From Vulcanimicrobiota bacterium (GTDB taxonomy: Bacteria > Vulcanimicrobiota > Vulcanimicrobiia > Vulcanimicrobiales > Vulcanimicrobiaceae), in NCBI GenBank assembly GCA_003151115.1, contig PLWS01000002.1, positions 372,001-436,000 of the forward strand: a stretch of DNA of 64,000 nucleotides. Direction: 5' to 3'. This document shows positions 24,523-62,505 of this stretch, one piece after another (positions within the stretch are counted from its first letter, which is position 1; each line of letters opens with the position of its first letter). The notes beneath the pieces were generated by a model. It searched no databases. It saw only the letters and a list, made by a program, of their open reading frames with translations, and was not told where the DNA came from. A program made the position numbers and the translations under genes.

Positions 24523-24547
24523 CCTTTTTGTCATGGTGACAACAAAT

Positions 24548-24620
24548 GTCATCCTGAGCGTAGCATTTCGCCCTTGGCGAAATGCGAAGTCGAAGGGCCG
24601 CCGAGCGAAGTCGAGGCGCG
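24548..24620. repeat. Dispersed GTCATCCTGAGC-type repeat with hairpin
   Basis: The block begins GTCATCCTGAGCGTAG and contains the perfect hairpin GCATTTCGCC (24563-24572) / GGCGAAATGC (24576-24585). It ends in GCGAAGTCGAGG, which supplies the ribosome site of livH. Related copies occur at 27338, 46529, 46562, 50515 and 62320-62505. Confidence 0.85.

Positions 24621-45148: not shown

Positions 45149-45152
<4 letters not shown>
44574..45152 (+). CDS. nuoC: NADH-quinone oxidoreductase subunit C
   Basis: This 192-aa hydrophilic arm subunit contains DWAEREIFDLFGITFEGHPDLR and RKDYPLRGP. It is separate from nuoD, as in most bacteria other than E. coli. It starts at GTG and overlaps nuoD by 4 nt. 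Confidence 0.93.
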
Positions 45153-46366
<1,214 letters not shown>

Positions 46367-46372
46367 CAATTG

Positions 46373-46522
46373 AACGCGCCGCGCTCCATCCCGAAACCGC
46401 TGGCGAAAAAACGTCCATGTTTTTTCGCCGCTTGAGCGCATTTTCGAAAGAACAAAGTTGTGAAATCGACATCCTGTCGAGTTCGAAAATGTCGCACATT
46501 TCCGGATGGAGCGCGACGCGTT
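46373..46522. repeat. Nested palindromic element (MITE-like) between nuoD and nuoE
   Basis: The outer 24-nt inverted repeat at 46373-46396 and 46499-46522 matches at 22 of 24 positions. Inside are three perfect hairpins. GGCGAAAAAAC/GTTTTTTCGCC lies at 46402-46429. CATTTTCGAA/TTCGAAAATG lies at 46439-46448 and 46482-46491. Within the latter is TCGACA/TGTCGA at 46466-46480. The open frame that crosses it is not coding-like. The structure suggests a small non-autonomous mobile element or a processed intercistronic RNA structure. Confidence 0.8.
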
Positions 46523-46528
46523 CCCATT

Positions 46529-46610
46529 GTCATCTTGAGCTGGTCGAAGGACCCCGAGCATGTCATCCTGAGCAGCGACCGAAGGGCGCGAGTCGAAGGG
46601 CGAGGGGCGC
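46529..46610. repeat. Two copies of the dispersed repeat before nuoE
   Basis: GTCATCTTGAGCTGGTCGAAGG and GTCATCCTGAGCAGCGACCGAAGG stand in tandem and end in GTCGAAGGGCGAGGGGCGC just before the nuoE ATG. As at livH, the repeat supplies the ribosome site (GAGGGG). Confidence 0.85.
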
Positions 46611-47351
46611 ATGACCGACTTCAACGCGCTCCGCGACCAGCTCAAGCCGCAATGCGAAGCCATCATCGCGCAGTACGAGCAGCCGCGATCGGCGCTGCTG
46701 CCGCTGGTGCATCTGTTCCAAGCGCACGAAGGCTATGCAAGCGCTGACGCGCTGCGCGCAGTGTCGGAGATGCTCGATCTCTCGCTTGCCGTAGTGGAGT
46801 CGACGGTATCGTTTTACACGCTGTTCTACCGCAAACCGGTCGGCAAGTACATGCTGCAAGTCTGCCGCGGTTTGGCGTGTACGCTGAACGGCGCCGAAGA
46901 CATTATGGCCTACTTCCGCGAGCAGCTCGGCATCGGTCACTTGGAAACGACGGGCGACGGCTTGTTTTCGTATGAAGAAGTCGAGTGTTTGGCGGCGTGC
47001 GATCGCGCGACGTGCATGCAAGTAAATTTGAATTTCGCCTACGATTTGACGCCGAAGATGATCGACGATATGCTGACGGCGATGCGCGCCGGCAAGTACG
47101 AAATCACGCCGCTCCCGCAGACGGAGCACCCGCCACGGACATGGACGCTGCGGCAAGATTTGCAAGTGTCGCACGGAGACAAATCCGCGGGCGCGCAAGA
47201 TCAGTCCGCACCGAATAACCCGGGCGGGCTCGATCGCGACGGCATCATCATGCTCGACCGCATCCTCTCAGACGAAGCGCGCTTCAAAGGACGCACCAAG
47301 GAACGGCTCGCGAATGTCGAGCCCGCGATGGCGGAGGCGATCGAAGAGTAA
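46611..47351 (+). CDS. nuoE: NADH-quinone oxidoreductase subunit E, with extended C-terminus
   Basis: This 246-aa protein has a thioredoxin-like 2Fe-2S domain with ligands in VCRGLACTLNG and ECLAACDRATCMQV. The usual length is about 160-180 aa. The ~70 C-terminal residues (from about 175, polar, with NPGGLDRDGIIML) are an extension, perhaps a linker toward NuoF. The ATG 46611 lies after the repeat. Confidence 0.9.
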   Translation: MTDFNALRDQLKPQCEAIIAQYEQPRSALLPLVHLFQAHEGYASADALRAVSEMLDLSLAVVESTVSFYTLFYRKPVGKYMLQVCRGLACTLNGAEDIMAYFREQLGIGHLETTGDGLFSYEEVECLAACDRATCMQVNLNFAYDLTPKMIDDMLTAMRAGKYEITPLPQTEHPPRTWTLRQDLQVSHGDKSAGAQDQSAPNNPGGLDRDGIIMLDRILSDEARFKGRTKERLANVEPAMAEAIEE

Positions 47352-48610: not shown

Positions 48611-50949
48611 TCGACCAGCAACTCGTCACCGTTACCATCGACGGCACGCCAGTGCGGGTTCCTAAAGGAACGTGGCTGGTTGAAGCTGCGAAGCAGATAA
48701 AACGCGAGATTCCGGTCTATTGCTATCACCGCAAGATGGGACCGGCTGGATTGTGCCGCATCTGCCTCGTCGAGATCGAAGGCATGCCGAAGCTGCAGAT
48801 CGCCTGCAACACTGCGGTGACCGACGGCATGGTCGTGCACACCCAAAGCGACAAAGCCGCCGATGGCCGTCGCGCGGTGCTCGAATTGTATCTCGTGAAT
48901 CATCCGCTCGACTGTCCGATTTGCGACAAGGGCGGCGAGTGCGATCTGCAAGACTACGCGATGGCCTACGGCCAAGGCTATTCGCGCAGCGTCGATCCGA
49001 AGGTCAGTAAGCCCAAAGCCGTCGACCTCGGGCCGACCATCGTGCTCGACGAAGAGCGCTGCGTCGTTTGTCAGCGGTGCGTGCGTTTCGACGACATGAT
49101 CGTCGGCGAACGAGAACTCGTTTTAAAAGATCGCGGCGTGCGCAACATCATCGCGACGGCGAACGGCGAGCCTTACCGGCATAACTTCACCGGGAACGTC
49201 ACGGAGCTGTGTCCGGTCGGCGCGCTGACGTCAAAGACGTACCGCTTCAAGTCGCGCCCGTGGGATCTGCGGCGGACGACGACAACGTGCACGCAGTGCC
49301 CGGTGGGCTGCCAGATGCATGTGGACGTGCGCGTGGGCGTCGTGCAGCGCACCATGTCGCTCGAAGACGACGACGCGATCAGCGACGGCTGGCTCTGCGA
49401 TCGCGGCCGCTACAACGTGGGCTTTTACGACGACCCGGCGCGCGTCACGCAGCCGATGTACAAACGCGATGGCGGCTGGGTGCAAATCGGCTGGGACGAC
49501 GCGCTGGATATCTGGGCAGCAGCGATACGCGAAGCTTGCGCGGTGAATCCGGCATCGGTGGGCGTGGTCGGCGGCGGCCGCTTGACCAACGAAGAAGCAT
49601 TCTTGCTGCAGCATCTCTTTCGTGCGAAAGGCGTTGCGAATCTCGATTGGCGCGCCGGCAGCCAGCGCCAAGCCTCGCCCGGACGTAACGGCGGAACGCT
49701 CGTCGATCTGGAAAGCTGCGACGCGATCGTGCTTATCGGGGAATCGCCGGCGGAGCGCGCGCCGGTCATGGACCTGCGCGTGCGCAAAGCCGCGTTGCAA
49801 AAAGGCGCCAAAGTCATTCGCATCGCGTCGGCCGAGCGGCCCTATCCGGCGCCGATCCCCTCGACCGATGTTGCGACCGTCGCAGAAGCGATCAAGAAGT
49901 TGCCGAAGGATCCCAAGCGCATCGCGATCGTCTGGGACGGTTGCGACGCAGATTTCGCGACGTCGCTGCTCGAAAAACTTCCCGCCGGCGCGCAAGTGCT
50001 GACCTATATTACGGGAGAGCAGGCAAACGCGCGCGGCGCAGAAGCGATGGGCATGCTGCCGTTCTCCGAGCCCGGCTACGGCAAAGCCGAGTCCGGGCTG
50101 GATGCAGCGCAAATGTTCGCCGCGGCGCGCGACGGAAAACTCGCCGTGCTGTCGATCTTCGGCGCCAATCCGGCAATGTATCGCGCGGATTTCGCGCGCG
50201 CGTCTTTCACGGCGGTCAGCGATCTCTTCATGACCGAAACCGCGCAGCTCGCGGATTTGGTGCTTCCGGCAAAGGGGCCGTTCGAAAAGACCGGCACGAC
50301 CACGAACATGGCCGGCGACGTGCTGCCGGTCAACGCGGCGCACTCACTCGAAACGCCCGCCGATGCGCTGAGCGATCTGGAGATGGTCGTCGCGCTGGCC
50401 GAAAAGCTCGGCGTCGAACTGCCGGTCGCGGAAGAAGTTGATGCGGCGGTTCTTCGCCACTTGGCGAAGGCGCCGGAAGATTTCACGCTTGGCGACGCGC
50501 GTTTTGGTACTAGCGTCATCCTGAGCCCGTCGAAGGACCCCGAGCGGCGCCGAAAGGCGCATGTCGAGGGGATAGCGTTCAACGTCGTAGTGCAGACCCG
50601 TGTCTTCGGCGGCGGCGGAACGAGCGCGCACGACGCGCGCATCGCGGAACTCTGCCCGCTTCCGGAAGCCGCGTTTTCGCCTGAAGATGCCGCCGAGCTC
50701 GGCGTGAACACGGGCGATTACATCGATCTTGTCCTCGACTCCGTCTCGGACGTGGTTCAAGCTCACCATGACAACGTTGGGCACGATCTGCTGGTTGAAG
50801 TTCGCAACGGAATGCCGCGCGGAACGATCGCGCTGATCGGCGGCTTGCCCGACAGCCCTGCGAGCAACTTGGCCGGCGCGCGCGTTAGCGTGACGAACAT
50901 CCGGCGCGCTCCCGAAGACGCGGCCGAAGCGATCGGTGCGCCCGCGTGA
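48607..50949 (+). CDS. nuoG: NADH-quinone oxidoreductase subunit G
   Basis: This 780-aa protein starts at GTG 48607. Iron-sulfur ligands are visible for the 2Fe-2S cluster (CYHRKMGPAGLCRICLVE), for the CPICDKGGECDLQD site, for CVVCQRCVRF, and for the extra N7 cluster (TTCTQCPVGCQ ... WLCDRG). A molybdopterin-oxidoreductase-like domain follows. Residues ~637-656 (SVILSPSKDPERRRKAHVEG) are encoded by an in-frame copy of the dispersed repeat, inserted between conserved segments and probably forming a surface loop. Confidence 0.94.
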   Translation: MIDQQLVTVTIDGTPVRVPKGTWLVEAAKQIKREIPVYCYHRKMGPAGLCRICLVEIEGMPKLQIACNTAVTDGMVVHTQSDKAADGRRAVLELYLVNHPLDCPICDKGGECDLQDYAMAYGQGYSRSVDPKVSKPKAVDLGPTIVLDEERCVVCQRCVRFDDMIVGERELVLKDRGVRNIIATANGEPYRHNFTGNVTELCPVGALTSKTYRFKSRPWDLRRTTTTCTQCPVGCQMHVDVRVGVVQRTMSLEDDDAISDGWLCDRGRYNVGFYDDPARVTQPMYKRDGGWVQIGWDDALDIWAAAIREACAVNPASVGVVGGGRLTNEEAFLLQHLFRAKGVANLDWRAGSQRQASPGRNGGTLVDLESCDAIVLIGESPAERAPVMDLRVRKAALQKGAKVIRIASAERPYPAPIPSTDVATVAEAIKKLPKDPKRIAIVWDGCDADFATSLLEKLPAGAQVLTYITGEQANARGAEAMGMLPFSEPGYGKAESGLDAAQMFAAARDGKLAVLSIFGANPAMYRADFARASFTAVSDLFMTETAQLADLVLPAKGPFEKTGTTTNMAGDVLPVNAAHSLETPADALSDLEMVVALAEKLGVELPVAEEVDAAVLRHLAKAPEDFTLGDARFGTSVILSPSKDPERRRKAHVEGIAFNVVVQTRVFGGGGTSAHDARIAELCPLPEAAFSPEDAAELGVNTGDYIDLVLDSVSDVVQAHHDNVGHDLLVEVRNGMPRGTIALIGGLPDSPASNLAGARVSVTNIRRAPEDAAEAIGAPA
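50515..50575. repeat. Dispersed repeat inserted in frame inside nuoG
   Basis: GTCATCCTGAGCCCGTCGAAGG followed by GGCGCCGAAAGGCGC (a small hairpin) and ATGTCGAGG is the same family as at 24548 and 46529. It is a multiple of three in effect, and nuoG stays open through it. Confidence 0.85.
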
Positions 50950-62319: not shown

Positions 62320-62505
62320 TTGTCATGGTGAGCGGCGCGCAAGCGCGCCAGTCGAACCACGCTCGAGCGCAGCGCGCGTAAGCGCGGTAAGACGAGAGCC
62401 GCATTCACGCGGGCCTCGCCCTTCGACCCGGCTCAGGATGACATAGCTCGGCCGCCCTTCGACTCCGCATTTCGCTAAAGGCGAAATGCTTCGCTCAGGA
62501 TGACA
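62320..62505. repeat. Cluster of dispersed repeats downstream of the decarboxylase gene
   Basis: The gap 62279-62523 holds no gene. It has degenerate and near-perfect copies of the repeat family in both orientations: GTCATGGTGAGC at 62322, CCGGCTCAGGATGACA near 62428-62442, and CTTCGCTCAGGATGACA near 62489-62505. The hairpin GCATTTCGC (62467-62475) / GCGAAATGC (62481-62489) is the same as that in the livH copy. Confidence 0.85.

Follow-up and report, generated by a model that had tools for sequence, protein, structure and literature searches.

The TwoAYGGAY motif (Rfam RF01731) was described by Weinberg and colleagues in 2010, with no function assigned (PMC2864571). In 2014 it was suggested to bind CsrA, which in that work stands as a proposal (PMC4333381). 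The consensus for CsrA is given in several papers as RUACARGGAUGU. Other work concerns how RNA stems arise. Template switching is described as creating and repairing stems (PMC8794818) and, in a second account, is predicted to invert a spacer between fixed flanks (PMC8604942).

The sequence considered here, termed the window, is a 64-kb stretch from a ~2.56 Mb genome of Candidatus Eremiobacterota. Within its nuo operon lies a palindromic element that the original prediction took for a possible mobile element or a possible control of mRNA processing. The element is a dispersed, selected, structured RNA with presence/absence polymorphism, and is neither a classical MITE nor specific to nuo. As an explanation of the whole, a dispersed GGA-loop RNA with a template-switched stem and a spreading core, representing a divergent form of the TwoAYGGAY architecture in Eremiobacterota, is favored with moderate confidence. 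The most interesting part is the behavior of the closing stem.

Architecture of the element

The element separates nuoD from nuoE (Table 1), at a place in the operon where, according to the original prediction, every other junction overlaps. This is roughly right, as nuoE and nuoF have 1 base in common; the exception is nuoB/nuoC, with a gap of ~8 bp by the listed starts. A plasmid search with the nuo region returned nuo genes wherever the matches had annotated features. Within the window, the element is the sole inverted repeat found with arms of at least 14 and a spacer of at most 300 nucleotides.

The near-perfect terminal inverted repeats that had been predicted are present as arms of 25 nt with 23/25 positions paired, and all three perfect inner hairpins (11, 10, and 6 bp) were found. 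The closing stem P1 holds a branched helix, P2/P3, and a hairpin, P4, with GGA in both loops. Other copies carry a different but equally paired P3, GGCCATGGATGGCC. The stop codon of nuoD (46364–46366) falls inside the outer arm of the window copy. The predicted fold of this copy has an energy of −85.1 kcal/mol against −47.1 ± 3.8 kcal/mol for shuffled sequence (z = −10.1). A search of the window copy gave neither a sigma-70-like promoter nor an intrinsic terminator.

Table 1. Features of the element and its flanking genes, in window positions.
Feature	Position	Strand	Evidence
nuoD, gene upstream of element	45149–46366	+	PF00346, E = 1.8e-111
Whole structured RNA element	~46364–46532	− (RNA sense)	model R1, 170 bits; strand test; pairing limits
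P1 outer locus-specific extension, 3' side	46364–46370	−	TGACAAT; 7-bp pairing with 46526–46532
Closing stem P1, 3' arm	46372–46396	−	inverted repeat; pair covariation, 26 copies
Hairpin P4, loop AUGGAC (46413–46418)	46402–46429	−	perfect 11-bp inverted repeat (arms 46402–46412/46419–46429); helix 4 covariation
Helix P2, 3' side	46439–46448	−	perfect 10-bp inverted repeat; helix 2 covariation
Conserved unpaired segment between P3 and P2, TTCACAACTTTGTT	46451–46464	−	near-invariant alignment columns
Hairpin P3, TCGACA-GGA-TGTCGA, loop GGA (46472–46474)	46466–46480	−	sequence; arms 46466–46471/46475–46480, 6 bp
Helix P2, 5' side	46482–46491	−	perfect 10-bp inverted repeat; helix 2 covariation
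Closing stem P1, 5' arm	46499–46523	−	inverted repeat, 92% complementary
P1 outer locus-specific extension, 5' side	46526–46532	−	ATTGTCA pairs with TGACAAT; paired in fold
nuoE, gene downstream of element	46611–47351	+	PF01257, E = 5.2e-43

A second dispersed repeat, TGTCATCCTGAGC...GTCGAAGG, has 8 near-matches in the window against 1.2 expected, at positions including 46528–46540, 46561–46573, 24547–24559, 50514–50526, 62431–62443, and 62493–62505. Two copies lie between the element and nuoE, and one is in frame within the nuoG ORF, translated as VILSPSKDPE. At the nuoD–nuoE junction of another genome (G019, locus L101), two tandem, partly duplicated element-like stretches can be read from the sequence.

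Evidence for a transcribed RNA

In an alignment of 80 copies, 60 of the 64 base pairs have changed on both sides in a compensatory way, with the count per pair leaning towards the model to which these copies were fitted. All 30 pairs of the closing stem (helix 1) covary, together with 13/15 in P2, 5/6 in P3, and 12/13 in P4. Paired cells make up 95.5% of the alignment compared with 58% after shuffling, and the covariation score (0.925, control 0.217) is far above shuffled and slid controls. An unfitted MAFFT alignment of 26 copies, taken on the minus strand, retains compensatory double changes at 48/64 pairs. The original prediction had named a single conserved copy, covarying at one locus, as the observation that would count against it; covariation is found, and it is found in many copies.

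The strand of the RNA is indicated by mismatches that only one strand can pair. With the arms aligned without favoring G·U, the copies of the window's genus have 48 G·U against 8 A·C on the strand with the GGA loops (p = 5e-8), and those of genome G012 have 27 against 8 (p = 0.002). An excess of G·U over A·C on one strand points to a transcribed RNA and not to a DNA palindrome. By this sequence evidence, the functional molecule is most likely an RNA on the minus strand of the window, antisense to nuo. Orthologous copies (n = 14) of G012 and G060, two genomes of one genus, diverge by 1.5% in the core, 8.6% in the flanks, and 11.5% in the arms. The core is under strong constraint, and the closing stem changes fast and in pairs.

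Relation to TwoAYGGAY

The gathering cut-off of RF01731 is 43 bits. The window copy scores 24.0 bits on the same strand as the GGA RNA, and the best copy of its genome, L005, aligns over the full model (1–168) at 38.2 bits (E = 0.0043). Other loci score 28–35 bits, and 20 loci of G012 and other genera gave no match at E ≤ 0.5. Since every copy tested misses the cut-off, the element is termed a divergent variant of TwoAYGGAY and not a formal member. In the reverse direction, model R1, built without L040, L042, and L043, recovers these RF01731-detected loci at 48–59 bits. In the window copy, the P4 loop fits AYGGAY, and the P3 loop, ACAGGAUGU, contains GGA but not AYGGAY; L004, L005, and L006 have AYGGAY in both hairpin loops.

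Related structures were also observed. A GC-rich TwoAYGGAY-like copy lies between atpG and atpD, on the sense strand of the operon, in the window's genome (G000; L042:1502–1653, G000:C5:152099–152252) and in G002 (L040:1506–1656), and a second respiratory operon thus contains a related RNA. Two palindromes of G012 (L161:13586–13760 and L171:1072–1238) have arms of 41–46 bp, spacers of 83–85 nt, GGA-rich hairpins on the reverse strand, and no match to R1; they may be another subtype. Rfam matches of the long stems to MIR810 and MIR2118 are far under the cut-off and were set aside as generic hairpin matches.

Copy number and distribution

The expectation that the genome would hold further copies, as a repeated dispersed unit, was borne out by DNA and covariance-model searches, which find 6 copies with BLAST and 8 with the model. 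The six other genomes of the host genus have BLAST matches in 5/6 and model matches in 6/6, and copy number in the genus is 1–9 per genome. Across the family, the element occurs in 31 of 68 genomes and 12 of 31 genera, reaching 36–39 copies in G012 and 24 in G060. A pattern derived from the core and scanned over GTDB genomes matches only records of Candidatus Eremiobacterota. The same pattern has no match in viral contigs, and phage-borne spread was rejected as an account.

Many contigs of the metagenome-assembled genomes (MAGs) end inside an element, among them C35, C66, C225, and C279 of G060 and C11 and C22 of G012. The repeats thus fragment assemblies, and the copy numbers are probably underestimates.

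Behavior of the closing stem

Each locus has an outer stem of its own, 25–45 bp long; stems in G012 are ~36–46 bp with sharp ends. Ten orthologous stems of G012 and G060 contain 22 paired double changes, to Watson–Crick pairs, and 10 one-sided changes, where ~3 double changes would be expected if the sides were independent; this count includes L247 and L254, which look like fold-back contigs, and the flipped locus L248, and leaves out L249, L257, and L263 as out of register and L261 as poorly aligned. At L129, L132, L139, and L141, the end of the neighboring gene with its stop codon forms part of one arm, and an inverted copy lies in the other. Paralogs of G012 with near-identical cores have unrelated outer arms, as in L126/L127 with 99% core identity, unlike orthologs, which keep theirs. 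The inner 20 bp of the arms follow a degenerate consensus in one subfamily (C). At 3 of 14 orthologous loci (L128/L248, L129/L252, and L142/L261), the core has opposite orientations in G012 and G060 within the same flanks, as template switching predicts.

The closing stem would need only to be double-stranded and not to have a set sequence. Template switching between the arms at replication would keep it perfect and extend it outward into host sequence. This account of the stem is probably correct, with the evidence drawn from MAGs, in which an inverted repeat may be assembled wrongly and some contigs show fold-back artefacts. Strong selection combined with rapid compensation could imitate template switching. 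Slow compensatory drift of a common outer stem is ruled out by the unrelated outer arms of paralogs with 99%-identical cores, and is kept only for the inner 20 bp. Standing palindromes as targets of insertion were also rejected: in a survey of the 64-kb window and ~400 kb of G012, every inverted repeat with arms longer than ~26 bp encloses a spacer of 83–103 nt and belongs to an element or a related structure. Dozens of stems per genome changing in matched pairs between sister species make it directly testable in this family whether compensatory change in a stem proceeds stepwise with selection or in one step by template switching.

Alternative explanations

The original prediction allowed that the element controls how nuo mRNA is processed between the operon's two halves, and its presence at nuoD–nuoE in G000, G005, G010, and G019 would speak for this. 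It is antisense in the first three and sense in G019, so that one junction has opposite orientations, and in most other genomes checked the element is missing and the two genes are adjacent or overlapping. These absences and the one sense copy argue against a role specific to nuo. Most copies lie away from nuo, and this reading is extremely improbable. A second alternative is a role at the 3' ends of transcripts. A very stable bidirectional hairpin would end or protect transcripts where genes converge, and the GGA loops would be secondary; this agrees with the long, GC-rich stems and with G012, where most copies are between convergent genes and stop codons are a few bases from the arms or inside them. 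However, a terminator needs no conserved core, GGA loops, or unpaired TTCAAAACTTTGTT segment; the window copy has no T-tract; and the window copy, L002, L004, and L005 (the last three by reading of their flanks) are between genes of the same direction. Such a role is quite unlikely as the main one.

Two further readings concern mobility. The many copies, the length of ~150 bp, the inverted ends, and the empty sites in relatives agree with a classical MITE, that is, a DNA transposon without its own transposase, which an enzyme acting in trans would move by binding the terminal inverted repeats. As predicted, insertion polymorphism is seen at nuoD–nuoE and between G012 and G060, where G060 has continuous, element-free sequence at five G012 sites (85–91% identity); empty sites for L124, L126, L139, and L141 also occur in relatives from other genera. 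Given these empty outgroups, the polymorphic sites are most simply gains in the G012/G060 lineage; the genus tree leaves G000 and G005 unresolved. The predicted short target duplication was not detected, as the flanks of 33 copies have no excess of common direct words (3.5 nt against 3.4 nt shuffled), and the outer ends are random between copies, with 29% identity in the outer arms and a fixed part of only 5–6 bp next to the core. Strand-asymmetric G·U pairs, covariation of the core, and core divergence ~6 times less than that of the flanks also speak against a MITE. The Y1 transposase (PF01797) is absent from all 14 element-bearing relatives searched and from G000, on which ground REP-type mobilization was rejected as well. 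The mobile-element prediction therefore stands for the dispersed copies and empty sites and falls for the terminal repeats and target duplication of what is a covarying RNA, and a classical MITE is highly improbable. More room is left for a self-spreading RNA or DNA element whose integration would copy 7–20 nt of the target in inverted orientation and so make a new closing stem at each site, which is a minor possibility. Such copying would explain why near-identical paralogs have unrelated outer arms and orthologs share them, why a native gene ends in one arm and its inverted copy lies in the other, and why at L147, L149, and L122 the empty site of G060 holds the outer part of one arm only. 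Nor do ~400 kb of G012 contain long palindromes lacking a core, apart from two related-looking structures. Against it, later template switching yields the same arms with no new integration mechanism, the polymorphic sites are not proven to be gains rather than losses, and the inner-arm consensus of subfamily C implies that the arm is in part inherited and subject to drift, which weakens the idea of arms as a wholly new inverted copy of the target. A self-spreading structured RNA that gains a perfectly paired stem at each integration is unlikely; if true, it would define a class of mobile elements whose inverted repeats derive from the target and whose RNA core is under selection. The template-switched stem around a core that would spread among sites is the preferred reading.

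GGA loops and a possible role of CsrA

At least one GGA loop is present in 79 of 80 copies, and two or more are present in 63. The ACAGGAUGU loop resembles the CsrA consensus. An RNA-binding protein, for which CsrA is the most plausible candidate, may recognize the two GGA loops that the RNA presents, and the RNA would then act as a decoy or within the 3' ends of transcripts; this is a tentative proposal, at somewhat below even probability. The csrA gene is present in the window's own genome (G000:C2:252441–252596) and in most relatives. It occurs in 26/31 genomes with the element and 33/37 without it, and no match to csrA was found in either genome of genus g10, one 97% and the other 90% complete, although the element is present there in 5 copies and 1 copy; csrA therefore does not track the element. 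This lack of co-occurrence argues against a simple version of the CsrA proposal. CsrA binding is the leading proposal for function, clearly unproven, and another GGA-binding protein or a 3'-end role may apply in its place.

Two genomes of the window's genus have a copy within ~10 kb of csrA: L006 in G000 (C2:260979–261143) and L011 in G003 (C1:836058, with csrA at C1:845789). TwoAYGGAY has been without an established function since 2010, and genomes with 8–39 copies, together with close relatives whose sites are filled or empty, are natural material for testing the CsrA proposal.

Comparison with known systems

MITEs and REP/REPIN sequences resemble the element in being short, palindromic, intergenic, multi-copy, and patchy among relatives. 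The element differs in lacking common terminal repeats, a target duplication, and a Y1 (RAYT-type) transposase, and in covarying at the RNA level. CsrA/RsmA decoys such as CsrB, RsmY, and RsmZ are similar in that each RNA displays GGA in two or more hairpin loops, an arrangement that suits a dimeric protein (PMC4333381). The element differs from them in having only two sites per RNA and many genomic copies, in the lack of any promoter or terminator found for the window copy, and in a distribution that csrA does not follow.

TwoAYGGAY shares with the element a long, poorly conserved external stem around two hairpin domains with GGA loops. In contrast to TwoAYGGAY, the element has helix P2 beneath the first hairpin, a conserved TTCAAAACTTTGTT strand, P3 loops that are often ACAGGAUGU and not AYGGAY, and many copies per genome. 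The hosts also differ, being human gut, gamma-proteobacteria, and Clostridiales for TwoAYGGAY and Eremiobacterota for the element. Template-switched RNA stems (PMC8794818, PMC8604942) share homogenized arms, outward extension, and spacer inversion with the element. In the element, template switching would act on a dispersed, multi-copy unit, with closing stems of 25–45 bp and dozens of independent stems per genome.
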